64,000 nt of DNA from Hamadaea sp. GTDB taxonomy: Bacteria; Actinomycetota; Actinomycetes; Mycobacteriales; Micromonosporaceae. The position numbers and the translations under genes are program-made. Shown piece after piece: positions 1 to 17,869 of the stretch. The notes below the pieces were generated by a model. The model was given only the letters and a program-made list of their open reading frames with translations. It was not told where the DNA came from and ran no database searches. Where the stretch lies: positions 1 through 64,000 of the forward strand of contig NZ_JABFVK010000019.1 of assembly GCF_013362815.1 (NCBI RefSeq), read 5' to 3'. Each line of letters begins with the position of its first letter. Within the stretch, counting starts at the first letter, position 1.

Positions 1-246
1 ACTCATCGGGTGCCGTGGGCATTCTTCGTTTGGCGCAGAGCGGTGAAGTCGCCCAGTGAGATGACGCTGATAGACGTTCCCGTAGGTCAGCTCGTGTCGG
101 TCCGACCCGGCGTTTCCCTGGTGGCCACCGCCGAGCCGCTGGGCACCCGACTGACCCTTCGAGCTCAGTACACCGAGGCAAACGTCGTAGCTCTTAGCCA
201 GTTCAGTGATCATCTACGTCGTGCGATCGCCTCAGTACACCGGTAG
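1..246 (+). CDS. C-terminal end of a condensation-like protein (partial)
   Basis: The reading frame is open from the first base of the window and stops at 244-246, so this is the end of a gene that begins upstream. The visible 80 or so residues read as a beta-strand-rich tail. They close with a segment (LTLRAQYTEANVV, then FSDHLRRAI) that resembles the last strand and helix of condensation-domain or PapA-like acyltransferases. That resemblance is weak and by eye only. Its position just ahead of the PyrH-like gene, on the same strand, suggests it belongs to the same biosynthetic cluster. The protein could equally be an unrelated cluster enzyme. Confidence 0.4.
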   Translation, partial: THRVPWAFFVWRRAVKSPSEMTLIDVPVGQLVSVRPGVSLVATAEPLGTRLTLRAQYTEANVVALSQFSDHLRRAIASVHR

Positions 247-330
247 CGATCATGTGTAGACTGCGTTCGCGGTTTGTGAGCCCAACGCCACCCGCCTTCG
301 AATCCTGTGAACCCCGGTTTACCTGAATGA

Positions 331-1074
331 ATGGCGAAGGTCTTGAGAAGATTCATCCCGAAACGATTCGTCCTTAAGGTCAGCGGCGAGGCGCTGAGCG
401 GCAAGAAGGGGTTCGGCAGCGACCCTGAAGTGATCACCCATCTTGCATCTTGTCTGGCCGAAGCTCGTGGTGCCGGCTATCAGCTTGCCGTGGTTGTCGG
501 TGGCGGCAACTACTTCCGGGGCGGCGACGAAAGCGGCTGGACCATTCCGCGCACTGAGCGAGACAACGTCGGGATACTCGGCACCGTAATGAACGGGATC
601 TTCCTTCGTGGCGCGCTGCTCAATTGTGGCGTTGACGATGCTCGGCTTATGACGGCGATACCCATCCCGTCGATAGCCGAGCCGTATATCCGGCTTCGAG
701 CCGACCACCACCTCAATAAGGGAAAGGTGCTCATCCTCGCGGGCGGTAACGGTCAGCCGTTCGTCACAACCGATTACCCTTCGGTTCAGCGTGCGATTGA
801 ACTGGACGCAGAGGCCCTGCTGGTGGCCAAGAACGGTGTAAGCGGCATCATGACCGCCGACCCGAAAGTTGATGCATCCGCCCGCCTTCTGGACAAGCTT
901 TCGCACGAGGATGTCATCGACCGGCGTATCCGGGTGATGGACCAGGCGGCGTTCGTCTTGGCGATGGAGAACTCACTGACTCTTAAGGTCTTCGATGTTG
1001 CGGTGCTGAATCAGCTCACCGAGATCTGCGGTGGTGAGCACATCGGGACACTTGTGGAGTCGCCGGATCGGTAG
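331..1074 (+). CDS. UMP kinase (PyrH) paralogue in a biosynthetic cluster
   Basis: 247 residues, the usual PyrH length. The family phosphorylates UMP to UDP with ATP in the cytosol. The amino-acid-kinase fold signatures are present: KVSGEAL (16-22), VVVGGGN (54-60), an RTERDN segment replacing the usual R-x-TAD (74-79), TTDYPSVQRAIELDA (147-161) and MTADPK (174-179), with a RVMDQAAF helix near 201. The start chosen is the ATG at 331; no strong ribosome-binding site is visible. It is followed on the same strand by a dehydrogenase and an SAHH-like gene. A housekeeping pyrH normally sits beside tsf and frr, which are absent here, so I infer a dedicated copy that phosphorylates a pathway uridylate or an analogue. 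A resistance kinase is an alternative, because other amino-acid kinases such as FomA act that way. Confidence 0.85.
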   Translation: MAKVLRRFIPKRFVLKVSGEALSGKKGFGSDPEVITHLASCLAEARGAGYQLAVVVGGGNYFRGGDESGWTIPRTERDNVGILGTVMNGIFLRGALLNCGVDDARLMTAIPIPSIAEPYIRLRADHHLNKGKVLILAGGNGQPFVTTDYPSVQRAIELDAEALLVAKNGVSGIMTADPKVDASARLLDKLSHEDVIDRRIRVMDQAAFVLAMENSLTLKVFDVAVLNQLTEICGGEHIGTLVESPDR

Positions 1075-1148
1075 GCACAGGAAGCCGGCCGGACGTCACT
1101 TGTTGTTTGACACGTGAATGCGACCCGGGGTCGCAGCGGGGAGGATCT

Positions 1149-2000
1149 GTGAGATTCATCTGGTTCGGCCTGGGCAGGTTCGGTCTTCCTATGGCCAAGA
1201 ATCTCATCGACCGAGGCCACGATATCTTGGTGCCGACCAACGGGGCTCACGGTGCGGCGGCGGCGAGAGAAGCGTTGGCCTGGGGAGCCCGTCCGACAGA
1301 ACCGGCAACGGCGGTCGACGGATGGTTGACGTGCCTGCCGCGGCCGGAGGATGTTCGGGAGGTCCTCGCCAGCATCGACCGATCCCAAACGTCATTGGTT
1401 GTCGACTTCTCGACGGGGCATCCGACCGGAGCACGTGACATTGCGTCGTGGTTGCATGACAGAGATATTCGATATGTCGATTCACCAGTGTCCGGATCGC
1501 CGGCGCAAGCCGCGGAGGGAAGCCTGACCACTTGGGCCGGTGCACCTGAGCCCGAAAGAGGATCGGTTATTCGCGGGCTGCTGGAGGACGTCGCCGCGAA
1601 CATCTTCTACATGGGCACGGTCGGCACAGGCAGCGCGATGAAGCTTGTCAATCAGGTCGTGCACATCACCAACATCGCCGCGCTGGGCGACGGCCTGGCC
1701 CTCGCACGTGCCCTCGGCGTTGACGAACAGCTCGCCGTTGCCAGCATGCAGACCTCCTCCGCGGATTCAGCCATGCTCAGAAGGTTTGGGCCCGCGATCG
1801 TCGCTCACGACTTCAGTCCTCGCTTTGCCCTCAAACTGGCTTCGAAGGACGTGCGTTTCGCGACGGCCGAGGCCGCCCAACATGACGTACAGCTGGACCT
1901 TCTGCGACTTGTCGCCGACCGGTTGATGAAGCTGGAGGCGGAAGGCTACGGCGAAAGCGACTTCAGCGTCCTCGCCAGCTCGCTCGCTCAGGAGGCATAG
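1149..2000 (+). CDS. NAD(P)-dependent 3-hydroxyisobutyrate dehydrogenase-like oxidoreductase
   Basis: About 283 residues if started at the GTG at 1149, which has a good Shine-Dalgarno (GGGGAGGA) a few bases upstream. An in-frame start at 1107 lacks one. The protein belongs to the beta-hydroxyacid dehydrogenase / 6-phosphogluconate dehydrogenase-like family. It opens with the Rossmann signature GLGRFGLPMAKNL, has the substrate loop SPVSGSPAQAAEGSL, and keeps the catalytic-lysine region GSAMKLVNQ. These enzymes oxidise beta-hydroxy acids or reduce the matching semialdehydes or imines. The next gene begins 7 bp downstream and its ribosome-binding site (AGGAGG) lies inside the end of this one, so they are probably co-translated. 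The substrate is unknown. Confidence 0.8.
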   Translation: MRFIWFGLGRFGLPMAKNLIDRGHDILVPTNGAHGAAAAREALAWGARPTEPATAVDGWLTCLPRPEDVREVLASIDRSQTSLVVDFSTGHPTGARDIASWLHDRDIRYVDSPVSGSPAQAAEGSLTTWAGAPEPERGSVIRGLLEDVAANIFYMGTVGTGSAMKLVNQVVHITNIAALGDGLALARALGVDEQLAVASMQTSSADSAMLRRFGPAIVAHDFSPRFALKLASKDVRFATAEAAQHDVQLDLLRLVADRLMKLEAEGYGESDFSVLASSLAQEA

Positions 2001-2006
2001 TCCGTC

Positions 2007-3416
2007 ATGGAAGTGTCCACCGTCATTCCGTGTGGTGGGATCTCTGGCAGCGCCCTGGAGACAGACGCACGCTTCGAAAAGATCTGCCATCGTGCCGCGA
2101 TGCTGGCCCTCGACGAGAGCTACGGGCTTCACCGTGAGCACATGACACTGCGCCTTACATCGACGGCTGGAGAGGCTCGCGTAATCATGGAGCCAAGCCT
2201 CGCCGACGTGGGGCAGCTCTTCACGGAGCTGCCACACCAGGTCGTCAACCTTGCAGCGTTCGGGCCGCCCGCGTTCACCGCGAGGATGAGGGAGGTCGGT
2301 GCCACGCTTCGCGAAATCCTGCTTCCGTTCTCCGGCTCGGAACTCGCAGTGATCCGGCGGCTCAATCCAAGCCTTCGAGAGGCGGCAAGGCGGGCGCATC
2401 GTCCGCCGGACTCCGCGCTCATCATCATCCGCGAGCACGCTCTGCTTGAGAAGCTCAACATGATCCAGTCATTGATCGACGGCGGCTTGCGGGCCGATCA
2501 GATCATCTTCGTTCCCAAGCCCGATGCCACCCGCTATCGCGAGCGCGTGATTGCGCACCTGCGGTCGATTGATTGCACGGTGATCGACTCCGACTGGACC
2601 CGCTCGTTGACCGATGAGCTCGCCAGCCGGCCCACGCCCGACCTCGACATCGTTCTCGTCGACGACGGGGGACGACTGATTCAGCTGGTCATGCGGGCCC
2701 AGGGCATTCATGCGCGCAGCGTCGTCGCGATCGAGACGAACTCGTCGGGCATGAAGAGGCTGACCGAAGCCGGTCTCACTGACGAGGTGGTCAATCTCTC
2801 CGACAGTCCAGCGAAGGAACGTGCGAACGCCTGGATAGCCGTCAGCGGCGTGCACGGGTTCAAGTCGTATCTCGCACATCGCAGACAGGCGGGCCAGTAC
2901 TGCCATCTGATCGGGTACGGCAAAATCGGCTCGTTCGCTGCCGAGAGCCTTCGGGCGAGCGGTTTCCGTGTCACAGTGTCCGAGGTATCCGCCGATCGCC
3001 GCGCCCTGGCCGAGCGGCATGGCTTCGCTGTGTACGAGTCAGCCCAGAAGGCATTGAGGTCTGAGCAGCACCGCTATGTCTTCGGTTGTTCGGGAATGCC
3101 GGCACTCACCCTCTCCGACCTGGGCTTGCTTGCCCCGGACGCGGTCTTGGCCAGCCTGTCTTCGAACGACTTCGCCGCGGTCATCGCCGCCGCCGCTGAA
3201 GACAGCGGCTGGCGTTCGTGGAGTGATCCGAGCGGAACGCACCTCGAGCGCGAGGGCGCTCGCGTACTGCTACTTGCCGACGGTCATGCAATCAATCTTC
3301 ACGGTGCCGAGGGTGTTCCGGAGCCTGACTTTGACGAGTTCGTAGCGACCGTGATCGGCGCGATCGACGACGAACTGGCAAGAATCGCCTCGCAACCTAA
3401 GCGCCTTGTTTGTTGA
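2007..3416 (+). CDS. Divergent S-adenosylhomocysteine hydrolase-like NAD-binding protein
   Basis: 469 residues. The C-terminal half matches the AdoHcyase fold. VDDGGRL (218-224) corresponds to the substrate-binding DDGGDL. IETNSSG (242-248) corresponds to EETTTG. DSPAK (266-270) keeps the catalytic lysine, and HLIGYGKIGSF (300-310) is the NAD-binding glycine loop, altered from GYGDVGKG. By eye, two hydrolase residues are replaced: the Asp after the KSKFDN motif reads Asn274, and the His of NxGHF reads Asn387. The fold and NAD site look intact, so I infer a redox or epimerase role on a nucleoside-like or other substrate, or a decoy/resistance role, rather than ordinary SAH hydrolysis. The 3' end overlaps the convergent carbamoyltransferase gene by 20 bp. 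Confidence 0.75.
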   Translation: MEVSTVIPCGGISGSALETDARFEKICHRAAMLALDESYGLHREHMTLRLTSTAGEARVIMEPSLADVGQLFTELPHQVVNLAAFGPPAFTARMREVGATLREILLPFSGSELAVIRRLNPSLREAARRAHRPPDSALIIIREHALLEKLNMIQSLIDGGLRADQIIFVPKPDATRYRERVIAHLRSIDCTVIDSDWTRSLTDELASRPTPDLDIVLVDDGGRLIQLVMRAQGIHARSVVAIETNSSGMKRLTEAGLTDEVVNLSDSPAKERANAWIAVSGVHGFKSYLAHRRQAGQYCHLIGYGKIGSFAAESLRASGFRVTVSEVSADRRALAERHGFAVYESAQKALRSEQHRYVFGCSGMPALTLSDLGLLAPDAVLASLSSNDFAAVIAAAAEDSGWRSWSDPSGTHLEREGARVLLLADGHAINLHGAEGVPEPDFDEFVATVIGAIDDELARIASQPKRLVC

Positions 3417-5073
3417 CGTACAACATCCCGTCAGACCAGATGTGGCGGGTGCCGCCCCATGACGCGGCGCTCGCCACATCCGGGAAGAAGCCGTGCCCAT
3501 TGTGGTTGGCACTCGTGTTGCAGAGCAGCGGGATCCCGCTGATCTTCTCGTACTCCAGCAGTATTCGTGCGGCGGCGGTGTTGCTTGAAGGTTCAATCGT
3601 CTGAAGACGTGCGGTCCGGTCGAGGTGCACGATCGCAGGAACCCGCGCCAGCCATTCCGACCGCACCTGATGATCAAAGATCATGTATGGGTCATTCCCT
3701 CCCGGCTCAAAGATCTGGGCTGAGCTGGTAGCCAGGCAAATAGGGGCGACCGGCCGATAAGACGCACGTCCCTTGATCAGATTTAGGTGGTCCTTCATCG
3801 CCGGATCCGTGGCAGGGGCCAAGATGCTGCGATTACCGAGTGCGCGCGGGCCGAGTTCGGCGCGCCCGGACAAGACAGTCACCGGTACGCCCTCGTGATG
3901 CAGGATCCAGGCCAACTCGCGCTCGTCGCACTGCCGCGCCAACCATCCGGACGGGACTTCGCTGCTCCGCAGCCGCGGACCGCTGTAGACGCTCCAGTCA
4001 AGCGCCGTCTGACCGCGCTCGCGGAACATCTCGCAAGCCGCGGTTCCGATCGCGGCACCTGAGTCGTTCGGAAACGGGGGAATCCACACTTCGCGAAACG
4101 CGCCGGACTTTCGCAATGCGCTGTTCCACTTGATGTTGAGCGCACAGCCGCCGCCTATCGCGAGGTTTACCTGAATTCCGGGGAAGACCTTCTGCGCGAG
4201 CGCTGTCAGCCGAGTCACCAAGGTGTTGCCGAGGAACGCTTGGAAGGTGGCGATGATGTCCGCATCGGACAGACCCGGGAGCAGCGCTGAACGATGCTCG
4301 GTCACGTTGTTGCCCAGATCGAAGGCCGTCTCGCGCGAAATCTGCCGAGATCCACGAAGTAGATCGTCGAATACGGAGAAGGCCGCTTCCTCGACCGTAC
4401 CAAGGGCGGCGTAGGCCATCGCCTTGCCAGCAATCGAGAGATGGTAGTCCCGATACTCGGCCACCGTCATCTGCGTACGATCGCGATAGTAGGGCTCGAA
4501 GTTGGCGCAGAAGTCGGCAAAGATGTTGCCGACGAGGGGAAAGAGCGGCCCTAGCGAGCGGACTTGCCGCTCGGCTGCGGCCACGTGATAGGCCCGGGGC
4601 ACCATCGCTCCGTCCCACACGACGACAAGCGCGTCCTCGCCTCGGGCTGGAAAAGGACTCGAACTGTAGGCGCCGATCAAGTGATTGCTGGCGTGGTGAT
4701 AGCTGACGTAACCAGGCCGCCGGCCACCAAAATCGAAGGCGGTGAACTCATGGCGATGGAGCGGGTCCCGGGATCTCACACCCTCGACATAAGGAGCGAC
4801 CGGCAGCTGCATAGGCTGCCCGCCCGTTGCCGTCGGTATCTGCGAGCCGTCTCCATCGCCCTCTGCCCACCAGCCGTCCACGACAAATTGGTCGACGTCT
4901 GCAGGTTCGATGCCTTCGCTCCGAAGGATCTCGCCGATGCGATCAAGGTCGCCCAGTGCTGAGTAGCGTCGGCCGTTGGCGAGCTTTTCGACCTCGATAC
5001 TGAAGATAAGCTTGTTGCCGTCTATGACCGCGACACCGCCGTCGTGCGAGACCTTGACTCCGCAGATCAGCAA
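3397..5073 (-). CDS. O-carbamoyltransferase, NodU/CmcH/TobZ family (copy 1)
   Basis: 558 residues from a TTG at 5073, which has a strong GGAGGGG site upstream and sits 3 bp inside the end of the ATP-grasp gene. The family makes carbamoyl-adenylate from carbamoyl phosphate and ATP and transfers the carbamoyl group to a hydroxyl. The N-terminal Kae1-like half carries SHDGG (9-13), HASNH (127-131, the HxxxH metal pair) and VVWDGAM (the metal Asp). NDSGAAIG follows further on, and the YrdC-like C-terminal half has the conserved AELGPRALGNRSIL. It is only distantly like the second copy at 7439-9064, with different loops and C-terminus, so the two probably act on different acceptors. It is likely in an operon with the upstream ATP-grasp ligase. 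Confidence 0.9.
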   Translation of the reverse strand: MLICGVKVSHDGGVAVIDGNKLIFSIEVEKLANGRRYSALGDLDRIGEILRSEGIEPADVDQFVVDGWWAEGDGDGSQIPTATGGQPMQLPVAPYVEGVRSRDPLHRHEFTAFDFGGRRPGYVSYHHASNHLIGAYSSSPFPARGEDALVVVWDGAMVPRAYHVAAAERQVRSLGPLFPLVGNIFADFCANFEPYYRDRTQMTVAEYRDYHLSIAGKAMAYAALGTVEEAAFSVFDDLLRGSRQISRETAFDLGNNVTEHRSALLPGLSDADIIATFQAFLGNTLVTRLTALAQKVFPGIQVNLAIGGGCALNIKWNSALRKSGAFREVWIPPFPNDSGAAIGTAACEMFRERGQTALDWSVYSGPRLRSSEVPSGWLARQCDERELAWILHHEGVPVTVLSGRAELGPRALGNRSILAPATDPAMKDHLNLIKGRASYRPVAPICLATSSAQIFEPGGNDPYMIFDHQVRSEWLARVPAIVHLDRTARLQTIEPSSNTAAARILLEYEKISGIPLLCNTSANHNGHGFFPDVASAASWGGTRHIWSDGMLYVNKQGA

Positions 5074-6365
5074 AGCTCGTCCCCTCCTTCGTGGTTCCGG
5101 TCGCTTGCCGGCTTCCCGTCTTCGAATTCGATCTTCAAGAGGTCGCCCGATGCCTTCCACAACATGGCCAGATCGTCGTGGGACGGCACCTGTCCAGCGA
5201 CGACACCGAGGTAACTGAGGGTTCCGGTGTCCGAATCCACTACATCCCCTGCGCCGGCCTTGACCTCGATCCGTGTGATTCCCAGCGGCGTGCTCTCGGC
5301 TCGCCCGATACTGCGTATCCGCGAGGATCCCACCGGTGCGGGAATGAAGAATTGAAAGGTGACTCCCGCCAGGGTCACTGCTGGCAGCCTCGCGCGCCGG
5401 CCCAGGGCGGCCTCTAAGGCGATCCGGACTGGATCAAGCTGAGCGGATCGCCGGACGATGTCGGCGACGTAGCCCCCTAAGCGGCCGTTCACCTCGATGA
5501 TCCGCGGTCCCTGCGCGGTCAACTTGAGCTCTGTCTGCACCACGCCGTGCGCTACCCCCAAAGCACGAAGCGTCTCGTCAGTCAGAATCAAGATCCGCTG
5601 GCGAGTCTCCGGTTCGATCGTTGCGGGAACGAACATGCCTGACTCTCGAAACGGCGGCGCCAGCGGAAGTTTGCCCAGCAACGCGAAGTGGTCGACGGCG
5701 CCGTGGTTCACTACCGACTCCACCGAGACGTAGTCACCCCACGCCGGTCCGGCCACGGTCGGATCGCCTTCAAGGTACTCCTCGAGTACGAGTGCCTCCG
5801 GCTGCGCGCAGCGGGGAAGCAACTGTGCCACCTGGGCATGAACCGCCGCTCGATCGCCCACGTATACTGTGTCTCGGCTGCCCGCCCCCGACTCCGGCTT
5901 GAGCACGGCGGGGAGGCCGACATGCGCCACGGCTTCTTGCACGTCGGTCACCGCCCGGATGACGTGGTAACGCAGGACATCAACTCCTGCCTCCGCGAGC
6001 ACCCGACGCTGGCTGGGTTTGTGCGTAAGCCGATGAGCAGTTTCGGTCGAGTGAAAGGCCATCCCCATGCGCTGCGCGTAATCGGCCGTCTCGCGCACGT
6101 GTGGCTCGCTGAAGGTGGTGATGCCTGCTATTCCGCGTTGCTCCAGCACCGCCGCCACGTCGTACGATGACAGCCCATCGACATTGACGAATTCGCCGAG
6201 GCGGCGTAGAAGACGGTCGACCCCCTGTCGCTCGGCAGCTTTGCCGTCGGCAACGAAAACGAGATCGCAGACGCCCCTTGCCGCTCGCCAGATATCTGAT
6301 GGACTCGCCGCGCCGACGTCATAGACCACAGCCACACGCGGCAACTGGTCAGCCGACTCGTTCAT
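5067..6365 (-). CDS. ATP-grasp carboxylate-amine ligase
   Basis: 432 residues, the usual length for stand-alone ATP-grasp ligases of the carnosine-synthase / amino-acid-ligase type, which join an acyl phosphate to an amine. The nucleotide-binding strands are VLKPESGAGSRDTV and ALVLEEYLEGD. The metal-binding end reads VVQTELKLTAQGPRIIEVNG, which holds the Glu and Asn that bind Mg. The start is the ATG at 6365 with GGGAAGGA upstream. The gene overlaps the start of the carbamoyltransferase by 7 bp, so they are coupled. In peptidyl-nucleoside pathways such as polyoxin, an ATP-grasp ligase joins a carbamoylated amino acid to the nucleoside; a similar joining step is a reasonable inference here, not proven. 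Confidence 0.85.
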   Translation of the reverse strand: MNESADQLPRVAVVYDVGAASPSDIWRAARGVCDLVFVADGKAAERQGVDRLLRRLGEFVNVDGLSSYDVAAVLEQRGIAGITTFSEPHVRETADYAQRMGMAFHSTETAHRLTHKPSQRRVLAEAGVDVLRYHVIRAVTDVQEAVAHVGLPAVLKPESGAGSRDTVYVGDRAAVHAQVAQLLPRCAQPEALVLEEYLEGDPTVAGPAWGDYVSVESVVNHGAVDHFALLGKLPLAPPFRESGMFVPATIEPETRQRILILTDETLRALGVAHGVVQTELKLTAQGPRIIEVNGRLGGYVADIVRRSAQLDPVRIALEAALGRRARLPAVTLAGVTFQFFIPAPVGSSRIRSIGRAESTPLGITRIEVKAGAGDVVDSDTGTLSYLGVVAGQVPSHDDLAMLWKASGDLLKIEFEDGKPASDRNHEGGDELC

Positions 6366-6508
6366 CGTCGCTGAATCCTTCCCTTGGCGCTACCACGGAC
6401 TGCGGCATGATCCGAGCCTGGGGTGCACTCGCCGCAGATCCCATGAAGCGTACATAAGATCACCGACCCGCATTGTCCCGGAAGATCGACTGCCGTTATG
6501 GTGGCGCG
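6366..6508. promoter_or_regulatory. Divergent promoter region between ATP-grasp and kinase genes
   Basis: About 140 bp separate the leftward ATP-grasp gene from the rightward kinase. This must hold both promoters if the kinase starts at 6509. I see no convincing hexamers or operator palindrome. Confidence 0.35.
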
Positions 6509-7432
6509 ATGACCTGGCCATCATGGAACGACGGCTCCTTCATCATCGACGGTGTTGGATACATAAGAGACGTCGTCGAGCTACCTGGCGGCTGGTCCAG
6601 CGGTCGGGCCATGCTGCTTGACGGCGACCGTGGACGGGCTGTAGTAAAACGGTGGCCTCAGCCGATGATGGCACGGGGTGCGGCCGAATCCGCCGCGCTG
6701 CTGGCGCTGGTCGGGTCGAGGGTCGCACCACGCCCGCTGACAATCAACGGTTCGCTCGATCCGCTGCACTTCGCCAGCCAGACGATCACCGCACAGGAAT
6801 TCCTCGAAGGCCGTCCGCCCTTCATGCATCGGCCGATCGAGGAGACGACTCTTCGTGCCATCGGCGCACGGATCGCCGAGATGCACGCTACGTTCAGGCC
6901 GACCGAACGGGCACTGCCCGTCGCGAATCGGCTGTCTGATGCGTTTGAGCTGTTGCGGCTCCCGGCGATACGACGGGACGGGCTATTCGACCTGATCGCA
7001 CAGGGGCTCAAAATGTGCGAGACGTCCCTCCCGGCACTCACGGAGTGCTCGACCGGTCACATCCATGGCGACCTCAACTTCGATAACATCCTCTGCGACG
7101 ACGACGGCATCCGATTCATCGACTTTGAGTTCGCTCGTCATGACCTGCGGCTACTCGATCTTGCCATGATGCGCGCACCGTTACGCTCAGCTGAGGGCAC
7201 CCTCGTGGTCCTACCACCTAGAATCCAGGTGGCCGTCCTCGACGGATACCAGGCCGCCGCCCAGACCCCGTTCGACGACCACGAGTTGGCACTCTTGCCG
7301 ACCGTCTCTCTCATGTACTTTTTGATGATCTTGCGTGATCTGGTTGCGCTCGATTCACTACATTGGCGCAAGGTTTTGCCGGCGGTCGCTCAACTGATGA
7401 GGGAAAGCTCTGTCTCGCTGCGGATCGCTTGA
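6509..7432 (+). CDS. Aminoglycoside-phosphotransferase (APH)-family kinase
   Basis: 307 residues from the ATG at 6509; an in-frame TTG at 6473 would add 12 residues. The protein kinase-like fold is shown by the Brenner motif HGDLNFDNILC and the following metal-binding FIDFEFA. Upstream are a lysine in VVKRW and a glutamate-rich helix. APH-family enzymes phosphorylate hydroxyls of antibiotics, choline, homoserine or sugars. In nucleoside antibiotic clusters such kinases often confer self-resistance by phosphorylating the product, so self-resistance or a cryptic phosphorylation step is my inference. It lies alone between leftward units and ends 6 bp from the convergent carbamoyltransferase. Confidence 0.8.
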   Translation: MTWPSWNDGSFIIDGVGYIRDVVELPGGWSSGRAMLLDGDRGRAVVKRWPQPMMARGAAESAALLALVGSRVAPRPLTINGSLDPLHFASQTITAQEFLEGRPPFMHRPIEETTLRAIGARIAEMHATFRPTERALPVANRLSDAFELLRLPAIRRDGLFDLIAQGLKMCETSLPALTECSTGHIHGDLNFDNILCDDDGIRFIDFEFARHDLRLLDLAMMRAPLRSAEGTLVVLPPRIQVAVLDGYQAAAQTPFDDHELALLPTVSLMYFLMILRDLVALDSLHWRKVLPAVAQLMRESSVSLRIA

Positions 7433-7438
7433 GCCGGT

Positions 7439-10459: not shown

Positions 10460-12012
10460 TGGAAGCACCCATCGTCGTTGTCGGTCAGCCATGCACCGGT
10501 AAGAGCACTCTTGGCTCCTCGCTGCAGAACATGCTGAGTGGCTACAAGCACATCAGCGTGGGTGATCTCATCCGAGCTGATCGCGACAGTCGAGGATCCG
10601 TCTGGCCCTTGGACCTGCGCAACGCTTTCGACGGCCGCCGCGGCTTTCCGGCTGATTTCATCAGCAAGCTGGTGACGGAATCGTGGCGGGACTGTCAAGA
10701 ACTGCAAGGCTGCATACTTGACGGTGGTCCGCCCCTGGGTGCGGCACTGCGCAAGATCGACGTGGCGCCTCTGCTCAGCATCGTGCTCGAGGCGTCCGAT
10801 GCTGTGCGTGAGGACCGCTTTCAGGAACGCCGCCGCCATAACCTGCGGACCGATGATTCGCTCGACCTATTTCGACGTCGGTCAGCGCAGTATCGGCTCA
10901 ATCTTGCCGAAACATTAGTCGAACTCGCAGACCTCGGGCCCCAACTGCACCTCGACGCGAACGCCGAGACCTCCGCCGTTCTGTATCAAGCGCTGTCCGC
11001 GACGCTCCTAAGCCGGGTGGTTCATCACCATCGGCGGCGACTCACCAACCCCAACAGCGCCACGGTCGCGTCCGCGGCAAAGCTGGCGCTGGACCGCCCC
11101 GGCCGCTCCGTGCGGGTTCCCGCAGTCGACGGGAGCACCCCAGTAAGTCCCATCATGATCATCAAGCCGGGCTTCGAGTACGGCCCCAACCTTGTGGCCG
11201 CAGTTGATGAGTGCCTGGCTCCCTTCGGCTATACCATCGGCGAGCTTGTGGTGTGGACCGACAGCGACCTCAAGCAGGCCGGCATGGTGGCGGCCCACTT
11301 CGACCGACAGTGGATCTATAGCCAATACGCCTCCGCACTTCTTGAGCCCGCCGTCCGAGGTGGCCAGGAGATTGCCGACGAATACACGCTCGACTCGCTG
11401 AACGCGTGGGAAGCGAGCCACCCGGCCAAAGTCGGCCCAGGTCGATGGCAGGCGGACCTGCGCCTGCCGGACGGCAGCTGGATTCGGGCTGTCAACGGCC
11501 ATATGCCCGGAGTTGTTCGGGGATATCTCCAACCGGGAGCGTTCGTCACGGCCCTACGTCTCGTGGCTCGGCCTGGTGCATCCTGCGCACGCTGGCGAGA
11601 GCTGCGCCGCGATCTTCTCGGTACAACCGACCCAAGGTTGGCGACGCCGAGTTCGCTGCGAGGAAAGGCATATGGTGGTGCCCTGCCCCTGAGCGGCGAG
11701 GTCTCTTTTCAGAACAACGCATTCCATCTTTCGGCCGGCCCCTTGGAAGCCATCCGCGAGCGGTTGATCTGGTTCGGGCCTCCCGCCTGTTCCTCACGTG
11801 AACTCAGCTTGCTGTTGAACCTGGCGACCGAGAAGCCGGATCCGGCCGGTGAGGGCTCTTTCGCCAGCACCGAATGCATGGACTGGTACGAGATTCTGCC
11901 ACGCCTCGCAGGGTGGACGTTGCTCCCGCCCGACCTGCTCCTCGGCGGTGAAGAGGACCCCGCACATCTCCTTGCCCGCCTTACCGGCTGGCACGCGACG
12001 AACGGTGAATGA
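10459..12012 (+). CDS. Adenylate kinase-like / nucleoside-diphosphate-kinase-like fusion
   Basis: 517 residues from the ATG at 10459, which overlaps the upstream stop. Residues 1-190 resemble adenylate kinase: P-loop GQPCTGKST (9-17), HISVGDLIRA (31-40), GFPADFISKLV (62-72), CILDGG (85-90) and RTDDSLDLFRRR (130-141). No zinc-LID insertion is seen. Residues 230-440 resemble NDP kinase: MIIKPG (233-238), GTTDP (388-392), LRG (400-402) and NNAFHLSA (419-426), whose His423 aligns with the phospho-histidine. The usual Asp of the IKPD motif is Gly238. I infer stepwise NMP to NDP to NTP phosphorylation by one polypeptide. The C-terminal 75 residues are unassigned. Confidence 0.75.
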   Translation: MEAPIVVVGQPCTGKSTLGSSLQNMLSGYKHISVGDLIRADRDSRGSVWPLDLRNAFDGRRGFPADFISKLVTESWRDCQELQGCILDGGPPLGAALRKIDVAPLLSIVLEASDAVREDRFQERRRHNLRTDDSLDLFRRRSAQYRLNLAETLVELADLGPQLHLDANAETSAVLYQALSATLLSRVVHHHRRRLTNPNSATVASAAKLALDRPGRSVRVPAVDGSTPVSPIMIIKPGFEYGPNLVAAVDECLAPFGYTIGELVVWTDSDLKQAGMVAAHFDRQWIYSQYASALLEPAVRGGQEIADEYTLDSLNAWEASHPAKVGPGRWQADLRLPDGSWIRAVNGHMPGVVRGYLQPGAFVTALRLVARPGASCARWRELRRDLLGTTDPRLATPSSLRGKAYGGALPLSGEVSFQNNAFHLSAGPLEAIRERLIWFGPPACSSRELSLLLNLATEKPDPAGEGSFASTECMDWYEILPRLAGWTLLPPDLLLGGEEDPAHLLARLTGWHATNGE

Positions 12013-12013
12013 C

Positions 12014-13633
12014 ATGAATACGAACCAGGGTGACGCGCCTCAACATCTCTACTTCGCCCGCCCCTGGCGTGATGCCCTGGTCCCGCAGACCAATATCTGC
12101 GATACCCTCCTGCACTGGGCGACAGTGATGCCTGATCGCCCGTACCTCACGGAACTCTTGGCTGATCAGGGCAATCCGCATACGACCACGTATGGTGAGC
12201 TGGCGCAACACGTAAGAGCCGCCGCGGCAGCACTACGCAACGTGCATGACGTCCGTCGGGGCGATCGCATCGCGGTAATGCCCAGGAACTCGATTGATTC
12301 AGTGATTCTGCTTCTTGCAACCGCCTACCTCGGTGCGGAAGCGGTCGTGCTCAACCCCCGTGATCCTGAGGCCCGCGTCACCGAGCAGATTCGGATGAGC
12401 GAGGCCGGCCTGGTGTTCGCCGAGGGTGGCGCGGGAAGGGAGAGCATCGAGATCGCCGAGTTCGCTAAGGCCGCCCGACAAACGGCGCCGCTGGCCGATC
12501 CGCCGAACCGGCATCCCTTCGACACCGCGTTCATCTTGTTCACCACAGGATCCACTGCAAGCTCGAAAGCCGTCCTGCTGACCCACTACAACCTCCTAGT
12601 CAACGGAACAGCACTTGCTCGGCATCACGGGCTCGTCGACGGTCGCCGCTTCTTAGGCGTTCTGCCGATCTCCTACGCCAACGGGCTCGGCTTGACGATC
12701 ATCGCGAACTTGATCGGCGGCTCGCAGGTATACCTCCTCGATCGCTTCGACCCTCTCACCTACCTGTCGACGCTCGAAGCCATCCAGGCCAACGTAGCCA
12801 GCCTGGTTCCCAGCATGCTGACCGCGGCGGTACTCGCCCGTAGGATTCCCCCGTTGCCCGCGCTTCAATATTTCATCTCGGCGGCCGCACCGCTACGCAC
12901 CAGCACTGCCCGTGAGGTGTACGACCGCCTCCGCATGCGAGTCGTTCAGGGCTACGGGTTGACGGAGACGACCAACTTCTCCACCACTATGCCGACCGAT
13001 CTGTCGCCCAGCGCCTACGAGGAATGGATGCTCGGCAAGGACATACCACCCGTCGGAATCGCCCTGTTCGGGAATGAGGTGGCCGTACTCGATATCGACG
13101 GACGGCCACTAGCGAATGGGGCGGAGGGCGAGGTCTGTATGCGCGGGCACAGCATCATGGCCGGATACGACCGCAATCCCGACGCGAACGACGAAGCGTT
13201 TCGCGACGGCTGGTTCCACTCAGGTGACATCGGCTACATGACGTCACTCGACGCTGGCGAGCCCGACCGGCGGATCCTTACCTTGACCGGCCGAGCCAAG
13301 AATATTGTGAAGATCGGCGGGGCGGCCGTCTCATTGGACGAGGTCGACCGCGCCCTCTTATCACTGCCCCGGATCGAGGATGCCGTCGCGCTGGGAGTTG
13401 AGGATACCCATCTTGGCGAGCGCATCGTGATCCAGGTTGTTTCACGGGAGGCGGACGCCTCGACCACGACAGCCACGATTCGCGAGGCGCTATCACGCGT
13501 GCTCGCCGCCGGACTACCCCCGACTCGCATCGAGCTTGTCGCCGAGGTGCATCGCACAGCAAACGGTAAGGCACTTCGGCGCCTGGCAAGACCGGAGACG
13601 CCTCCGGCGATCGACGAAGAGCTCGATGGCTGA
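12014..13633 (+). CDS. AMP-forming acyl-CoA synthetase / carboxylate ligase
   Basis: 539 residues from the ATG at 12014, one base after the previous stop. It is an ANL-superfamily enzyme that adenylates a carboxylic acid and passes it to CoA or to a carrier protein. Signatures in order: ILFTTGSTASSKAVLLTHYN (P-loop-like A3), a GYGLTETT motif, GWFHSGDIGYM (A7) and a C-terminal RTANGKALRR holding the catalytic lysine. With two free-standing carrier proteins in the same cluster, loading of an acid onto a carrier is a reasonable inference. It is part of the coupled five-gene rightward operon. Confidence 0.88.
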   Translation: MNTNQGDAPQHLYFARPWRDALVPQTNICDTLLHWATVMPDRPYLTELLADQGNPHTTTYGELAQHVRAAAAALRNVHDVRRGDRIAVMPRNSIDSVILLLATAYLGAEAVVLNPRDPEARVTEQIRMSEAGLVFAEGGAGRESIEIAEFAKAARQTAPLADPPNRHPFDTAFILFTTGSTASSKAVLLTHYNLLVNGTALARHHGLVDGRRFLGVLPISYANGLGLTIIANLIGGSQVYLLDRFDPLTYLSTLEAIQANVASLVPSMLTAAVLARRIPPLPALQYFISAAAPLRTSTAREVYDRLRMRVVQGYGLTETTNFSTTMPTDLSPSAYEEWMLGKDIPPVGIALFGNEVAVLDIDGRPLANGAEGEVCMRGHSIMAGYDRNPDANDEAFRDGWFHSGDIGYMTSLDAGEPDRRILTLTGRAKNIVKIGGAAVSLDEVDRALLSLPRIEDAVALGVEDTHLGERIVIQVVSREADASTTTATIREALSRVLAAGLPPTRIELVAEVHRTANGKALRRLARPETPPAIDEELDG

Positions 13634-14813
13634 GATGACACGCGTCCTGGTGGGAATCCCCACCTACAACGAGAGCCACAATATCGAGCGCGTCACGCGG
13701 CTCGTCGACGATGCGCTGGTCGCTAATCGGAGCGCTACCTCTTTCGCAATTGCCAACCTGGACAACAACTCCCCGGACGGAACCGCCAAGATATTCGCGA
13801 ACGTCACCACCCGCACGCCCAAAGTCGCACTGGCCACACAGCCGGGCGTTGTCGGGAAGGGCGCCAACATCCGGCTACTTATGACGCACGCTTTGGAACA
13901 CGGATTCGACGCCGCCATCACCCTGGACGCCGATCTCCAGCATGTCCCGCCACAGTGGATCAGCGCATTCACGGATGCGATCGATCGGCCCTCACCGGTC
14001 CTCGCACTCCCGCTGTACGCCCGTCCCGCCAACGACGGAAGCCTGACCAATCACGTAATCGTCCCGCTGTTGGCCGCCGTAACCGGCCACCCGATACGGC
14101 AGCCGATCGGAGGCGATATGGGATTCAGCCGACGCTTTATGCAAGACGTCACCGCTGTCGACTGGCCCGACACCGCGTACCGGTTCGGAGTCGATCTCTT
14201 CTTCGCACTCTTCGCGATGCGCCACGGGGAATATACGCAGACGCCACTGGCGGTCGGGAAGCATCACCCGTGGCGCAACGCAGCACCGAACCAGGTCGAA
14301 CCCGAATTCAGCGGCAAGTTCGACGACATCGTCTCCACACTTCTTGATCTCCTGACGCAGTCTCGGCCGCACAGCACCGGCGTGCCTGGTGTTGGCGCGT
14401 TCCCTGATTGTCCGCCGCTGGATGAAGCGACCGCTCGCAAGTGCGATCCGCGCTTCATGATCGCCGTTGCGCAATCGGAGCACGAACGGCAGAGCCGCGA
14501 ACCCTGCTATCAGTACCTGCTGGGCGGGATCGAGGGGGCTGAGGCTCGGCCGCTGCTGCCAGACCACGCATGGGCCGGCGTGCTGTCGAGGGCCCTGCAG
14601 GCGTGGCCGTCGGAAGAACCATCGGCATTCCTCAAGGCTTTACGCGCATTGCTCTACTGCCGAATAGCAACCGACCAGGCCGAGTTTGTCGGCCTTAGCC
14701 AGGCTGAGGTCGACGGGAGGGTGCTTCGCGTGGCCTCGCTTATCAACATCGACGCCCACTCCGACCAAGGGACGCCGATACCGGGCCCAACCCCGAAGGA
14801 GGCAATAGCATGA
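13626..14813 (+). CDS. Family-2-like (GT-A) glycosyltransferase
   Basis: 395 residues from an ATG at 13626 that overlaps the end of the ligase by 8 bp. The N-terminus is a GT-A nucleotide-sugar-binding fold: VLVGIPTYNESHNIERV, then NLDNNSPDGT, and the metal-binding DADLQHVP. A conserved GGDMGFSR loop follows. The pattern resembles GT2 and mannosylglycerate-synthase-like enzymes, which move sugars from NDP-sugars to small acceptors. The C-terminal 130 residues are helical and unassigned. No membrane segment is seen, so it probably works on a soluble acceptor. It shares its final ATGA with the following cupin gene. Confidence 0.8.
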   Translation: MAEMTRVLVGIPTYNESHNIERVTRLVDDALVANRSATSFAIANLDNNSPDGTAKIFANVTTRTPKVALATQPGVVGKGANIRLLMTHALEHGFDAAITLDADLQHVPPQWISAFTDAIDRPSPVLALPLYARPANDGSLTNHVIVPLLAAVTGHPIRQPIGGDMGFSRRFMQDVTAVDWPDTAYRFGVDLFFALFAMRHGEYTQTPLAVGKHHPWRNAAPNQVEPEFSGKFDDIVSTLLDLLTQSRPHSTGVPGVGAFPDCPPLDEATARKCDPRFMIAVAQSEHERQSREPCYQYLLGGIEGAEARPLLPDHAWAGVLSRALQAWPSEEPSAFLKALRALLYCRIATDQAEFVGLSQAEVDGRVLRVASLINIDAHSDQGTPIPGPTPKEAIA

Positions 14814-15535
14814 TCGATGCAATCAAGCACATACCCGACGCCGAGAACGAGATCCATGACCTGGCCGCGTTCAAAGACTTCGGCTACTGCGTCCTCACAC
14901 CGATCGTTCGGTTCGACGCCGCCGTCGCGCTGGGTCTGGTGACCACGCTCGCCGGGGTGGTACGTACGGGTCACGCCACGCAGGCCGCGCATGTGCGCGA
15001 CGGCGAAGGAATAGTACGCGCCCAAACCTTCGAGGAGGGCGCCGTCTACATGGTCGCCCCGCCGTTCGACGGTTTCGCCGCCGACCGATACCTCATGGAC
15101 TTCTACGATGTGACGGATCGTGATCTTTGTTCCCGAATGCACATGCACACCGGAATGCGTTTCGTCCGCATGATGACCGGTCCCGAGACCAGCATTCGTG
15201 TTTCGGGTCTGTCGGAGTTTCGCTTCGGCCGCGCAACGTCATCCTTCGAGCTGGAGACGTTCGAGGACCAGTTGACGGATCCCGCCAGCGGTCGCGCCTA
15301 TCGACGCTATAACGCTGTAGTACCCGAACGGTCGTGGGTGGACATGCAGATCCCGCGAGGAACGGCCCACCAGTTTAACGCCATCGGCCCGCACGCTGTG
15401 ATCGACACGGTTCACCCCGAGGAGTCGATCGAGATCTTCCGGGAACGGGCATCTCGCATCAACATGATGGCGCAGACAGTCTTCCTCGAAGCGGAACCGT
15501 CCACAAGTGAGGCATGCCGCGACCTCACCGCGTGA
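14810..15535 (+). CDS. Cupin-fold protein
   Basis: 241 residues, starting at 14810 in an ATGA overlap with AAGGAGG just upstream. Two cupin signatures are visible. The first is a metal-binding HMH at about 107-109 (SRMHMHTGMRF), where the usual acidic residue appears as Arg. The second is IPRGTAHQFNAIG, matching PxG-x2-H-x2-N. This suggests a metal-dependent cupin such as a dioxygenase, epimerase or isomerase, or a binding protein. It is the last gene of the rightward operon and faces the convergent carrier-protein gene with a 3 bp gap. Confidence 0.6.
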   Translation: MIDAIKHIPDAENEIHDLAAFKDFGYCVLTPIVRFDAAVALGLVTTLAGVVRTGHATQAAHVRDGEGIVRAQTFEEGAVYMVAPPFDGFAADRYLMDFYDVTDRDLCSRMHMHTGMRFVRMMTGPETSIRVSGLSEFRFGRATSSFELETFEDQLTDPASGRAYRRYNAVVPERSWVDMQIPRGTAHQFNAIGPHAVIDTVHPEESIEIFRERASRINMMAQTVFLEAEPSTSEACRDLTA

Positions 15536-15538
15536 ACC

Positions 15539-15802
15539 TCAGCGACGATCCAGCGGTGTCAAAATGTCACGAATCATGGCTGATACGGCCCCGATTGTCG
15601 TGAAGTGTTCGGGCCGCAGGTCGTCATCGGGGATCTTCATGGCGAATCGGCCCTCCAGGTCACTCACGAAGACGAACAGAAGGAGCGACGAAACGCCTAG
15701 GTGCGCCAAATGATCGGTGGCTGTAACCGTCCCCGGATGTTGCCCGGCCACTGCCGCAATAGAATCCGCGATTCCCGCCTCGATCGCCTGCTCCGACATC
15801 AT
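15539..15802 (-). CDS. Free-standing acyl carrier protein (1)
   Basis: 87 residues, a normal carrier length. The motif HLGVSSLLLFVFVSDLEGRF contains the phosphopantetheine serine in LGVSS, a variant of the usual DSL, with the following helix intact. It starts in an ATGA overlap with the SDR gene, so hydrolase, SDR and carrier form one leftward operon. This suggests a carrier-bound intermediate that is reduced and then released. Confidence 0.75.
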   Translation of the reverse strand: MMSEQAIEAGIADSIAAVAGQHPGTVTATDHLAHLGVSSLLLFVFVSDLEGRFAMKIPDDDLRPEHFTTIGAVSAMIRDILTPLDRR

Positions 15803-16542
15803 GTGACGCTCATCCCTCCATCGATCATGATCGCGGCCGCCGTAATGGATCTTGATTCGGTCAGAAGTTTAACCCACTGCGCCACTTCCGTGGGTTCGAC
15901 CGTGTGGCCCAATGGCGTGACCGGCAATGGCCGACCGTCCATCACCTCCGCAAGCATCGGAGTCCGGACCGCACCGGGGACGATGGCGTTCACCCGCACG
16001 CCGTAGGGCGCACACTCCGCCGCCAACGCCTGAGTCGCAAAGTGCAGCGCAGACTTGCTGGTCCCGTACCCAACCCGCCCCGGCCGAGCGCTGGTTCCCT
16101 GCTCAGAGCCGATGTTGACGATATCTGCGGGCGCCGCCCGGCGTAGTTGCGGAAGGAACAAAGCAGCAAGCTTTATCGCCGCAGTCGAATTGACAGCAAA
16201 CAGCTCGTCAATTCTCTCGCACGTGAGTTCATCCAAGCTGCCGAAGTCGGCATGCCCTGCGTTGTTGACCAGCAATTTGAGGCAGCAGAACCTACGCTCA
16301 ACCTCGACGGAGAGGGCCCGGAGCTGCTCGTTGTCCCGCAGGTCGGCCGCGATGACCGTGGTGTCAGTCGAAGAATGAGCCTCGGCAACCTCGCGCAACC
16401 TCAGGATGTTTCGTCCGGTCAACACGACATGCCAGCCCGCCTGTATCAGAGTGGCGCTAATCGACCGTCCGATGCCTCCACCAGCCCCCGTGACCACTGC
16501 AACGCGATCGGGTCGAGAGCACAGATGCACGCCAAGATTCAT
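15799..16542 (-). CDS. Short-chain dehydrogenase/reductase
   Basis: 247 residues from the ATG at 16542, which has AAGGAGT about 10 bp upstream and overlaps the previous stop (ATGA). Classical SDR features are present: the TGAGGGIG cofactor loop, LLVNNAG, and the catalytic Ser-Tyr-Lys in IGSEQG and YGTSKSA. It is likely an NAD(P)-dependent ketoreductase acting on a carrier-bound or free intermediate, as suggested by its place between a hydrolase and a carrier protein. Confidence 0.88.
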   Translation of the reverse strand: MNLGVHLCSRPDRVAVVTGAGGGIGRSISATLIQAGWHVVLTGRNILRLREVAEAHSSTDTTVIAADLRDNEQLRALSVEVERRFCCLKLLVNNAGHADFGSLDELTCERIDELFAVNSTAAIKLAALFLPQLRRAAPADIVNIGSEQGTSARPGRVGYGTSKSALHFATQALAAECAPYGVRVNAIVPGAVRTPMLAEVMDGRPLPVTPLGHTVEPTEVAQWVKLLTESRSITAAAIMIDGGMSVT

Positions 16543-17456
16543 CGCAGTACTACTCCTTCGATCCATTCAGCGATCTGATCCCACTGCGCATGAACCTCTG
16601 GATGGCTCACCACATCGATATGAGTCCAGTCCGCAGGGAGGGTATGCACCGTCCGGCTTGGACTTTCCACCATCGCCTGGATCGTGGCCGCGCAGCGGGT
16701 ACCGCTCGACGAATCTTTTGACCGCACACCCAGTACGGGAATCCGGATGCCGCCGAGGATCTCTCCGCAGGCTTCGCTCTCGGCAAGATTTGCGATCTCC
16801 TCAATCTGGCGAGACGGCCACCATTCGTCATTACCGAACATCAGATATCGGAGCTGATCGAAGTCGCGTGCCAGGGACGTGATCAGCGGCGAAGCCACGG
16901 ATTCCCAGCCATTTCGGGAATCGGCCAGACTCTCTTCTGCCTGCCGACGGAACCGCGGATTCCAACTCGGCGAACGCACCAGATCATGCCGACTGGCCAG
17001 TGGTTGCGCCGAACCGGACGGGGCGATGCCGCCGTCCAGCAGGATTAGCCCGTTAAGACCAGCATCCCGCGACGCGGCCAAACAAGCGAGTGACGCACCG
17101 AGGCTGTAGCCAGCCAGAATGACAGGTAGCTCGGGAAACGCGCGTCGTGTAACTAGCAAGGCCTGATCGATGTCATCCAACAGATCCGTCGTCCGGCAGT
17201 CGGCGAGATTGGCTAGGTCCATCTGCAAACGGCTTGTACGGAACGGCACCGCACCAACTGCGAATCCTCTTTGGGCAAGGCCGACACGGAAGTCACGACC
17301 GACGTCATCCCTCGTCCATGTCCGAACATTGTTCCATCGACCCGGTATGAAACAAATGACGGCGGCCGGGGGCCGGCCGGGACGAGGCACGACGACCACC
17401 GCTGGATCCCGCAGCTTACGAACTACCAGCGGATCAAGCCGTTCACTCTCCAGCAC
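16539..17456 (-). CDS. Alpha/beta hydrolase (thioesterase-like)
   Basis: 305 residues from a GTG at 17456. The fold is indicated by an oxyanion region near ICFIPGRWNN, the nucleophile elbow GYSLGAS, and a late catalytic His in DWTHIDVVSHPE. Being first in an operon with an SDR and a carrier protein, it may release or edit a carrier-bound acyl group. It starts only 27 bp from the divergent second carrier gene, so the promoter of each must lie inside the other coding region or the annotated starts are slightly off. Confidence 0.78.
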   Translation of the reverse strand: MLESERLDPLVVRKLRDPAVVVVPRPGRPPAAVICFIPGRWNNVRTWTRDDVGRDFRVGLAQRGFAVGAVPFRTSRLQMDLANLADCRTTDLLDDIDQALLVTRRAFPELPVILAGYSLGASLACLAASRDAGLNGLILLDGGIAPSGSAQPLASRHDLVRSPSWNPRFRRQAEESLADSRNGWESVASPLITSLARDFDQLRYLMFGNDEWWPSRQIEEIANLAESEACGEILGGIRIPVLGVRSKDSSSGTRCAATIQAMVESPSRTVHTLPADWTHIDVVSHPEVHAQWDQIAEWIEGVVLR

Positions 17457-17483
17457 CCGTCCTCCCCTCGCGCATCAGGAAGC

Positions 17484-17801
17484 ATGCCGCTCGAAATCTC
17501 GGAAGATCTTCTCACGAACGACCGGACGCCACAGGGTGCCAGTGCTGCTATCGTCCGAGCTGTGGAAGATCGCGATCGCCTGGCCGCAATCTGGTGCGCC
17601 CTCCTGGAGCTTGACTCTGTCTCAGATGACGACAACTTCTTTGCGTTCGGTGGAGACTCCCTCCTTGCGGTCGAACTTATCGAGGTCGTGGAGGCAGAGT
17701 TCGGTTGCGATCCGCCGGTTGATGCGCTCTTCGCCGATGGATCGTTCGGCGCCCTGGTAGAAGCCGTGACGCCGCGGCACAGTGACGCACGGACTCAGTA
17801 G
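17484..17801 (+). CDS. Free-standing carrier protein (2), PCP/ACP type
   Basis: 105 residues from the ATG at 17484; longer in-frame starts run antisense through the hydrolase gene. The motif FFAFGGDSLLAVELIEVVE holds the canonical GGDSL phosphopantetheine attachment serine of NRPS-type carriers. A GGxS carrier differs from the LGVSS carrier at 15539, so the two may carry different acyl groups. It is the last intact cluster gene before a decayed region. Confidence 0.85.
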   Translation: MPLEISEDLLTNDRTPQGASAAIVRAVEDRDRLAAIWCALLELDSVSDDDNFFAFGGDSLLAVELIEVVEAEFGCDPPVDALFADGSFGALVEAVTPRHSDARTQ

Positions 17802-17869
17802 CGCGAGCTGCCCCTCCGCGTCGGTGTCGCCCGGAGGCGGTGGGGTTCGCAGTCCCTACGGCCGGCGAC

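Follow-up and report, generated by a model that had tools for sequence, protein, structure and literature searches.

As far as is known, most described nucleoside antibiotics leave their producer in nucleoside form, and enzymes of the target then phosphorylate them. In two published accounts, prodrugs of this kind, 3'-amino-3'-deoxyguanosine (PMC9239236) and 4'-thiothymidine (PMC12691670), are converted from nucleoside to nucleoside triphosphate (NTP) by three successive kinases of the target cell, in the former case guanosine kinase, guanylate kinase and nucleoside diphosphate kinase (NDPK) in turn. In contrast, such kinases sit in a gene cassette at the locus described here, which lies in a 64,000-nucleotide stretch of Hamadaea sp. 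DNA (the window; bases 1-64000 of contig C124, NZ_JABFVK010000019.1, 162,999 b, from a genome of 7.45 Mb). Four genes, encoding a protein resembling S-adenosylhomocysteine hydrolase (SAHH), a kinase of the aminoglycoside phosphotransferase (APH) family, a fusion of adenylate kinase (AK)-like and NDPK-like halves, and a PF14907 nucleotidyltransferase, form a rare conserved nucleotide cassette that is built into a carbamoylation and acyl-activation cluster.

Other described systems resemble separate parts of this cluster. Polyoxin-type peptidyl nucleoside clusters combine a carbamoyltransferase with an ATP-grasp-type ligase, as does the window, but we know of no AK-NDPK fusion or SAHH-like gene among them. 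NodU of rhizobia, TobZ and CmcH belong to the same domain family as the two carbamoyltransferases of the window, which keep the metal-site residues but stand in an actinobacterial context and have no assigned acceptor. The angustmycin cluster likewise places an SAHH-type NAD enzyme in a nucleoside-type setting. According to its description (PMC8599513), AgmF is an SAH-hydrolase homologue, annotated as SAHH, that acts as a nucleoside dehydratase and needs H56, D129, K184, D188 and H299, whereas the window protein is only a remote SAHH relative in which H56, D129 and K184 have counterparts and D188 and H299 have no clear ones; moreover, none of the 16 window genes is annotated like AgmA-E. Consistent with an earlier sequence-only reading of this DNA, which knew of no described cluster with the exact set, none was found by title or abstract start in the open-access literature, a weak negative since most subscription papers lie outside it. 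Genome and plasmid searches with single genes or alignments likewise revealed the whole set at none of the loci whose neighbourhoods were examined.

The four cassette genes recur together in two genomes, G281 and G1306, of one genus that belongs to the same taxonomic order as the window genome (as a guess only, Mycobacterium in the wide sense). Searching 394 genomes of the class with a profile of the NDPK domain turned up G281, and searching 118 of G281's genus with a profile of the fusion turned up G1306. In both, a minus-strand PF14907 gene is followed by the SAHH-like, APH and AK-NDPK genes on the plus strand; the order of the last three is that of the window, but there the PF14907 gene directly precedes AK-NDPK, carbamoyltransferase and ATP-grasp genes on the minus strand separate members of the cassette, and the cassette is coupled to the operon of the AMP-ligase and family 2 glycosyltransferase (GT2) genes. 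Over the aligned parts, window and G281 proteins are 41% (PF14907), 36% (SAHH-like), 31% (APH) and 26% (fusion) identical, the SAHH-like proteins of the window and G1306 share 39% identity, and identity between the G281 and G1306 proteins is 70-86%. All four genes are intact in G281 and G1306, with no stop in any. Between these genomes, dN/dS (Nei-Gojobori) was 0.12 for PF14907, 0.21 for SAHH-like, 0.30 for APH and 0.28 for the fusion, compared to 0.11 and 0.17 for two flanking genes, and dS was 0.55-0.63 for the cassette genes compared to 0.54 and 0.745 for the same flanking genes. These dN/dS values, together with dS similar to that of the flanking genes, are consistent with vertical inheritance, with purifying selection acting after the two species diverged.

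In G281 and G1306 the cassette is a discrete insert of about 5.7 kb, and some congeners have the same site closed. A search of 60 genomes for the neighbouring lrp gene (lrp, ecfT and DDAH are names given to flanking genes by eye) gave 43 with a match, and we compared the loci of 30 of these, one being G281 itself. The lrp and ecfT matches were 5-28 b apart in 4 of the 29 other loci and 0.27 and 0.80 kb apart in 2, with ecfT outside the 1.5-kb flank in the remaining 23, and the cassette proteins had no match within the 1.5-kb lrp flanks in any of the 29. The closed sites and cassette-free flanks therefore define the cassette as a unit.

The fusion is rare. Genome samples overlapped between searches, and match counts are not additive. 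Among 200 genomes of the family, 19 matched the fusion protein at E <= 0.001, the window's own alone spanning both halves and the others one half. An NDPK profile matched 144 of the 394 genomes of the class at E <= 0.001, with the window genome, G575 and G281 above 60 bits; the remaining matches, at 33 bits or less, were taken for ordinary NDPKs. In 396 genomes of the phylum a fusion profile found the window genome, G281 and two weak matches to the AK part, and in the 118 of G281's genus it found G281, G1306 and 13 weak matches to the AK half, while 204 genomes of G575's genus (presumably Streptomyces) yielded no fusion and one NDPK-only match, at almost the position matched on the plasmid of Streptomyces sp. 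HUAS 15-9. No AK-NDPK fusion beyond those of the window, G281 and G1306 was thus found in the samples searched. A PF14907 profile matched the window genome, G281 and one further genome weakly (62.9 bits) among 397 of the order, and the PF14907 protein had no plasmid match at E <= 1e-8. For the SAHH-like protein, the window genome and 8 others, at up to 84 bits, matched among 200 genomes of the family (E <= 1e-15). Scans of genome contigs with six and two short patterns found no relative.

The predicted activities rest on profiles, structures and conserved residues, with the HGD, Walker A, KGG and D-x-D motifs read in their familiar meanings. The APH protein (PF01636, 73.5 bits; 28-31% identical to that of G281) contains HGD..DN and D-x-E, and HGD and D-x-E are invariant between window and G281, as are K138, G139, G140, D157 and D159 (KGG and D-x-D) in the PF14907 protein (85.3 bits against a cut-off of 31.2; 40-41% identical to that of G281). 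The fusion consists of a nucleoside monophosphate (NMP) kinase-like half and an inserted NDPK-like half. Its AK half (PF00406, 28.5 bits against a cut-off of 26.8) has the adenylate/NMP kinase Walker A, GD-x-(I/L)R and LDG motifs, and Walker A, GD-x-IR, LDG, N..H.S and S-x-RG are invariant between the window and G281 fusions. The NDPK half of the window protein had no Pfam match at E <= 0.001 but matched PDB NDPKs (4di6, residues 392-451, E 2.7e-4; weakly 1xqi, E 0.12), and the G281 fusion matched PF00334 at E 2.7e-4 with 21.3 bits, under the cut-off of 27. Across nine aligned rows, the window's included, N, R, S-x-R and N-x-x-H-x-S are present in all nine and the K-P lysine in eight; N-x-x-H-x-S with Arg and an S/T-x-R phosphate site is the NDPK signature. 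In an unrooted tree of these nine sequences, window, G281 and G1306 split off together (support 86/77).

The SAHH-like protein carries the NAD domain PF00670 (30.0 bits against a cut-off of 27) and had no match to PF05221 at E <= 0.001, compared to 507.9 bits for the genome's true SAHH. Aligned to the latter with hhalign, it matched over residues 68-469 in global mode (Prob 98.7, E 1.8e-15) and 236-453 in local mode (Prob 97.6, E 2.6e-12). The positions of the SAHH ribose-oxidation site are kept as H144, D219/D220, E243 and K270 in the global alignment, E243 and K270 also in the local one (residue roles in part after PMC8599513). In an unrooted tree of 13 sequences, the window, G281 and G1306 proteins stand apart from eight other SAHH-like proteins and two SAHHs (support 99/100).

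Based on these data, the reading we prefer, at somewhat less than even confidence, is that the four genes are a nucleotide-tailoring and activation cassette, embedded here in a specialised-metabolite cluster. Judging from fold and residues, the SAHH-like protein would use NAD+ to oxidise the nucleoside sugar and so drive elimination or exchange at a neighbouring carbon; the APH-like kinase would convert nucleoside to monophosphate, the AK-like half monophosphate to diphosphate, and the NDPK-like half, using its catalytic His, diphosphate to triphosphate; and in a last step the PF14907 protein would move a nucleotidyl group to an acceptor. Such a chain from nucleoside to NTP with final nucleotidyl transfer is what the kept APH, AK and PF14907 motifs most simply suggest, and NTP formation, which had been proposed before, is still the most economical use for the APH, AK and NDPK genes. 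In the window, the two O-carbamoyltransferases and the BacD-like ATP-grasp ligase would decorate the molecule, and the AMP-ligase, carriers, GT2, short-chain dehydrogenase/reductase (SDR) and hydrolase would build and attach an acyl or glycosyl part; the inferred product would be a carbamoylated nucleoside. More tentatively, the cassette may be a self-contained undescribed system that makes a non-canonical NTP as nucleotidyl donor, stands alone in two bacteria and was recruited in the window genome into a pathway to a carbamoylated natural product.

If the cassette reading is true, a chain of kinases for nucleosides, NMPs and NDPs, kept by selection on the producer's side together with a nucleotidyltransferase, would mean that the modified NTP is itself a biosynthetic donor. 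The AK-NDPK fusion would then be a marker for finding further clusters, with four well-defined proteins to study, and the uncharacterised family PF14907 would gain a possible function. The stand-alone cassette in two bacteria suggests a small undescribed biochemical system; what is new here is a variant of nucleoside-type specialised metabolism, and it would be new in kind if the stand-alone system is real.

Several observations weigh against the cassette reading. In the SAHH-like protein, SSND aligns with the GHFD of SAHH and GVPE with GHPS, so that these two active-site histidines are gone; given this loss and the absence of a clear equivalent of AgmF D188, the protein may not act on a nucleoside. 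SAHH-like proteins of about 30% identity also sit in other actinobacterial gene sets without a fusion, some beside an APH gene, and the SAHH-like and APH pair alone is therefore not specific. The arginine of the adenylate/NMP kinase motif DGFPR is absent from the AK half, which reads DGGPP in the window and DGSVG in G281, leaving its substrate uncertain. The SAHH, ATP-grasp and AK profile scores exceed their cut-offs only slightly, and no literature on PF14907 was found by title or abstract start in the same open-access collection. Finally, tblastn with 17 window proteins, that of a gene cut by the contig start included, matched only the cassette in 20 kb of G281 (E <= 1e-3) and 32 kb of G1306 (E <= 1e-4); as no further window gene adjoins it there, the cassette may serve something else in those genomes.

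The alternative that survives best, though we consider it unlikely, is that what the kinases and the nucleotidyltransferase activate is a sugar or acyl phosphate and not a nucleoside: APH would form a sugar phosphate, PF14907 an NDP-sugar and GT2 would transfer it, with the carbamoyltransferases acting on a sugar hydroxyl and AK-NDPK merely recycling nucleotides. NodU and TobZ act on a sugar 6-OH, and the window encodes a NodU-like and a TobZ-like enzyme as well as the GT2. The TobZ-like protein matches TobZ structures over residues 2-535 of 541 (E 6.3e-63) with HHLAH and two Asp kept, and both enzymes exceed the cut-offs of PF02543 and PF16861 and keep the metal-site H, H, D, D in their familiar roles (by alignment in the TobZ-like protein, by eye in the NodU-like one). 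The NodU-like protein scores 618.9 bits with NF041651, under the cut-off of 1000, and among the best 30 of 217 records it is 44.6-47.3% identical to those annotated NodU and 57% identical to a product of a Streptomyces NBC_01237 stretch, beside a gene that by eye resembles a nonribosomal peptide synthetase (NRPS). However, a selected AK-NDPK fusion kept with an SAHH-like gene would be superfluous to sugar activation, and where the cassette stands alone, in G281 and G1306, nothing beside it matches GT2, the carbamoyltransferases or the ligase.

A second alternative, quite unlikely in our judgement, concerns the PyrH (UMP kinase) paralogue alone and is compatible with the cassette reading: the paralogue would be an insensitive self-resistance copy and the product an inhibitor of UMP kinase. 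PyrH matches were single in 18 of 20 relatives searched and absent from two less complete genomes, while the window genome has a second copy. This copy is of a distinct type. It scores 89.5 bits with PF00696 (cut-off 24.9) and 243.4 with TIGR02075, just under the cut-off of 243.9, and matches PDB UMP kinases down to E 2.8e-69, the best being 2jjx (236.6 bits, with GGNGQPFVTTDYPSVQRAIE in common), which we take to be the Bacillus anthracis enzyme. It is 40-45% identical to the PyrH of relatives and 44% to the housekeeping PyrH of its own genome (contig C63), whereas among the matches listed a Nonomuraea protein reaches 51.7% and a Paenibacillus one 49.1%. The sequence-only reading had coupled this gene to the AK-NDPK fusion, an association that found no support: no PyrH match lies in the stretches examined around the G281 and G1306 cassettes, and the closest relative among the matches listed, the second PyrH of Nonomuraea gerenzanensis (L126, 20001-20717), has none of the remaining window genes within 40.7 kb. 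That comparable extra copy speaks against self-resistance, as does the failure to find open-access literature combining UMP kinase, self-resistance and a biosynthetic gene cluster. The paralogue is of another, Bacillus-like type and lies outside the four-gene cassette, and its role may be biosynthetic or one of resistance. Altered base specificity, suggested by its substitutions, was rejected because 2jjx carries the same motif.

Improbable, in turn, is an anti-phage or conflict system making a chain-terminating or alarm nucleotide. The kinase and nucleotidyltransferase content, the rarity of the cassette and its insertion at one site in 2 of 118 congeners would suit it, but PADLOC had no match for seven of eight proteins and two weak P-loop matches for the G281 fusion (23.8 and 21.3 bits), that fusion had no match in a phage collection, neither the fusion nor the SAHH-like protein had a relative in IMG/VR (two short patterns each), and the G281 and G1306 neighbours are, by eye, metabolic, regulator and transport genes. 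A resistance cassette, with APH and nucleotidyltransferase as drug-modifying enzymes, was set aside because AK-NDPK and the SAHH-like protein have no part in it.

The cluster comprises 16 genes, from the PyrH paralogue through carrier 2 (331-17801; Table 1), and its left end is missing because contig C124 begins at window base 1. Its GC content is 0.608-0.634, compared to 0.645-0.715 in the remaining window. Likely starts were chosen by overlap and Shine-Dalgarno sequence (TTG 5073 for the NodU-like gene, 17484 for carrier 2); the AK-NDPK gene starts at 10426 or at ATG 10459, in a TAATG shared with the PF14907 stop. The plus-strand genes (pyrH, HIBADH-like and SAHH-like; APH; PF14907, AK-NDPK, AMP-ligase, GT2 and unassigned) are interrupted on the minus strand by ATP-grasp followed by NodU-like, and by TobZ-like. 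Genes from 9251 to 15535 make up a single plus-strand chain in which stop and start codons overlap or adjoin, and these overlaps would tie nucleotide and acyl-activating genes into one operon. The minus-strand genes hydrolase/SDR/carrier 1 and ATP-grasp/NodU-like show the same coupling, the NodU-like gene overlapping the ATP-grasp end by 7 b behind the Shine-Dalgarno sequence AAGGAGG. Given these overlaps and the abutting convergent genes, the arrangement is not due to chance.

Table 1. The cut gene at the contig start and the 16 genes of the cluster, with window coordinates; cassette genes are marked core.
Gene product	Coordinates	Strand	Basis and remarks
Cut gene, 3' end	1..246	+	Truncated by contig start
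PyrH paralogue (UMP kinase, Bacillus-like type)	331..1074	+	TIGR02075, PF00696, PDB 2jjx
3-Hydroxyisobutyrate dehydrogenase (HIBADH)/tartronate-semialdehyde-reductase-like NAD(P) enzyme	1107..2000	+	PF14833, PF03446; alternative start GTG 1149
SAHH-like NAD enzyme, core	2007..3416	+	PF00670; hhalign to own SAHH
NodU-like O-carbamoyltransferase	3397..5073	-	PF02543, PF16861, NF041651
ATP-grasp amino-acid ligase, BacD-like	5067..6365	-	PF13535; BacD and BL00235 structures
APH-family small-molecule kinase, core	6473..7432	+	PF01636
Second O-carbamoyltransferase, TobZ-like	7439..9064	-	TobZ structures
PF14907 nucleotidyltransferase (KGG...YDxDFL), core	9251..10459	+	PF14907
AK-NDPK fusion, core	10426..12012	+	PF00406; NDPK half from PDB 4di6 and motifs
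AMP-dependent acyl/aminoacyl ligase	12014..13633	+	PF00501, PF13193; start GTG 12005 or ATG 12014
GT2 glycosyltransferase, dolichol-P-mannose-synthase-like	13626..14813	+	PF00535; 5mlz
Unassigned protein (earlier 'cupin')	14810..15535	+	No profile; pairs with AMP-ligase in R. opacus too
Free carrier protein 1	15539..15802	-	PF00550, 34.3 bits
SDR oxidoreductase	15799..16542	-	PF00106, 163 bits; open reading frame to 16566, ATGA overlap start 16542
Alpha/beta hydrolase, possible thioesterase	16539..17456	-	PF12697, 28.7 bits
Free carrier protein 2 (..FGGDSL..)	17484..17801	+	PF00550, 58 bits

The gene content given by the sequence-only reading was borne out, with the NDPK half resting on motifs and PDB 4di6, except for a 'cupin' (14810-15535) that had no match in Pfam at E <= 1 or PDB at E <= 5; apart from these two, Pfam or NCBIfam backs every label. 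PF14833 and PF03446 are over cut-off in the HIBADH-like protein, which scores 142.5 bits with NF008592 (cut-off 397). The ATP-grasp protein scores 28.9 bits with PF13535 (cut-off 27) and matches the BacD and BL00235 structures at E about 1e-13. The AMP-ligase, GT2 (PF00535, 43 bits; 5mlz, E 2.6e-6), SDR, hydrolase and two phosphopantetheine-binding (PP-binding) carriers are all above cut-off. The cut gene had no Pfam match at E <= 1 and two plasmid matches at E 0.9, regarded as chance, and neither search supported reading it as the end of an NRPS condensation domain. Just beyond the cluster, where the DNA is richer in GC, lies an AbiEi/AbiEii-like toxin-antitoxin pair (PF09407, PF08843; 18689-20160).

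Relatives of the cassette proteins also occur in other settings. A recurring actinobacterial set (L075, 10128-18629; L074, L081, L086) comprises an SAHH-like protein fused to Gfo/Idh/MocA, APH, an AP-endonuclease-type TIM barrel and unknowns, one of them weakly HPr-kinase-like. The NDPK-like domain family is also found in HUAS 15-9, G575, G151, G197, G038 and G109. The HUAS 15-9 plasmid cluster (NZ_CP106799.1, 205868-236191) encodes guanylate kinase, SAHH, a cupin, an aminotransferase, an M16 peptidase, an NDPK-domain protein with a C-terminal part nucleotidyltransferase-like by eye, a nucleotidyltransferase and an ABC transporter. It resembles the window in its NDPK-like domain and in its SAHH and nucleotidyltransferase-type neighbours, but by tblastn over 30 kb only AK-NDPK (NDPK half) matches convincingly, and APH and the carbamoyltransferases have no match. 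In G575 (L071, G575:C1:1186000-1205999; 5137-19923), an NDPK-like gene accompanies an archaeal-type S-adenosylmethionine (SAM) synthetase, an inositol-phosphate-synthase-like protein, a PHP phosphatase, APH, a weakly matching P-loop kinase and a protein nucleotidyltransferase-like by eye; the product of this cluster could be an analogue of SAM or a carbocyclic nucleotide. The corresponding idea for the window locus, that modified ATP yields modified SAM, was dropped because the genome has no PF01941 match. At L026 (9685-14703), an NDPK-like gene lies near genes that by eye are YjjX-type NTP phosphatase, SIR2-like and thymidylate-synthase-like.

That the cluster's genes might be conserved apart rather than together had been considered a possible objection. 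This is so in part: the four-gene subset is conserved together in G281 and G1306, but some relatives lie elsewhere, among them the NodU-like one in Streptomyces and an adjacent pair in Rhodococcus opacus, where relatives of the unassigned protein (57% identical, WP_007297341.1) and the AMP-ligase (41%) are encoded side by side. This R. opacus plasmid stretch (L125, 20010-32549) encodes the unassigned protein, a carrier-AMP-ligase, TauD, an aminotransferase and IleRS, the gene for the last of which may be a resistance copy.

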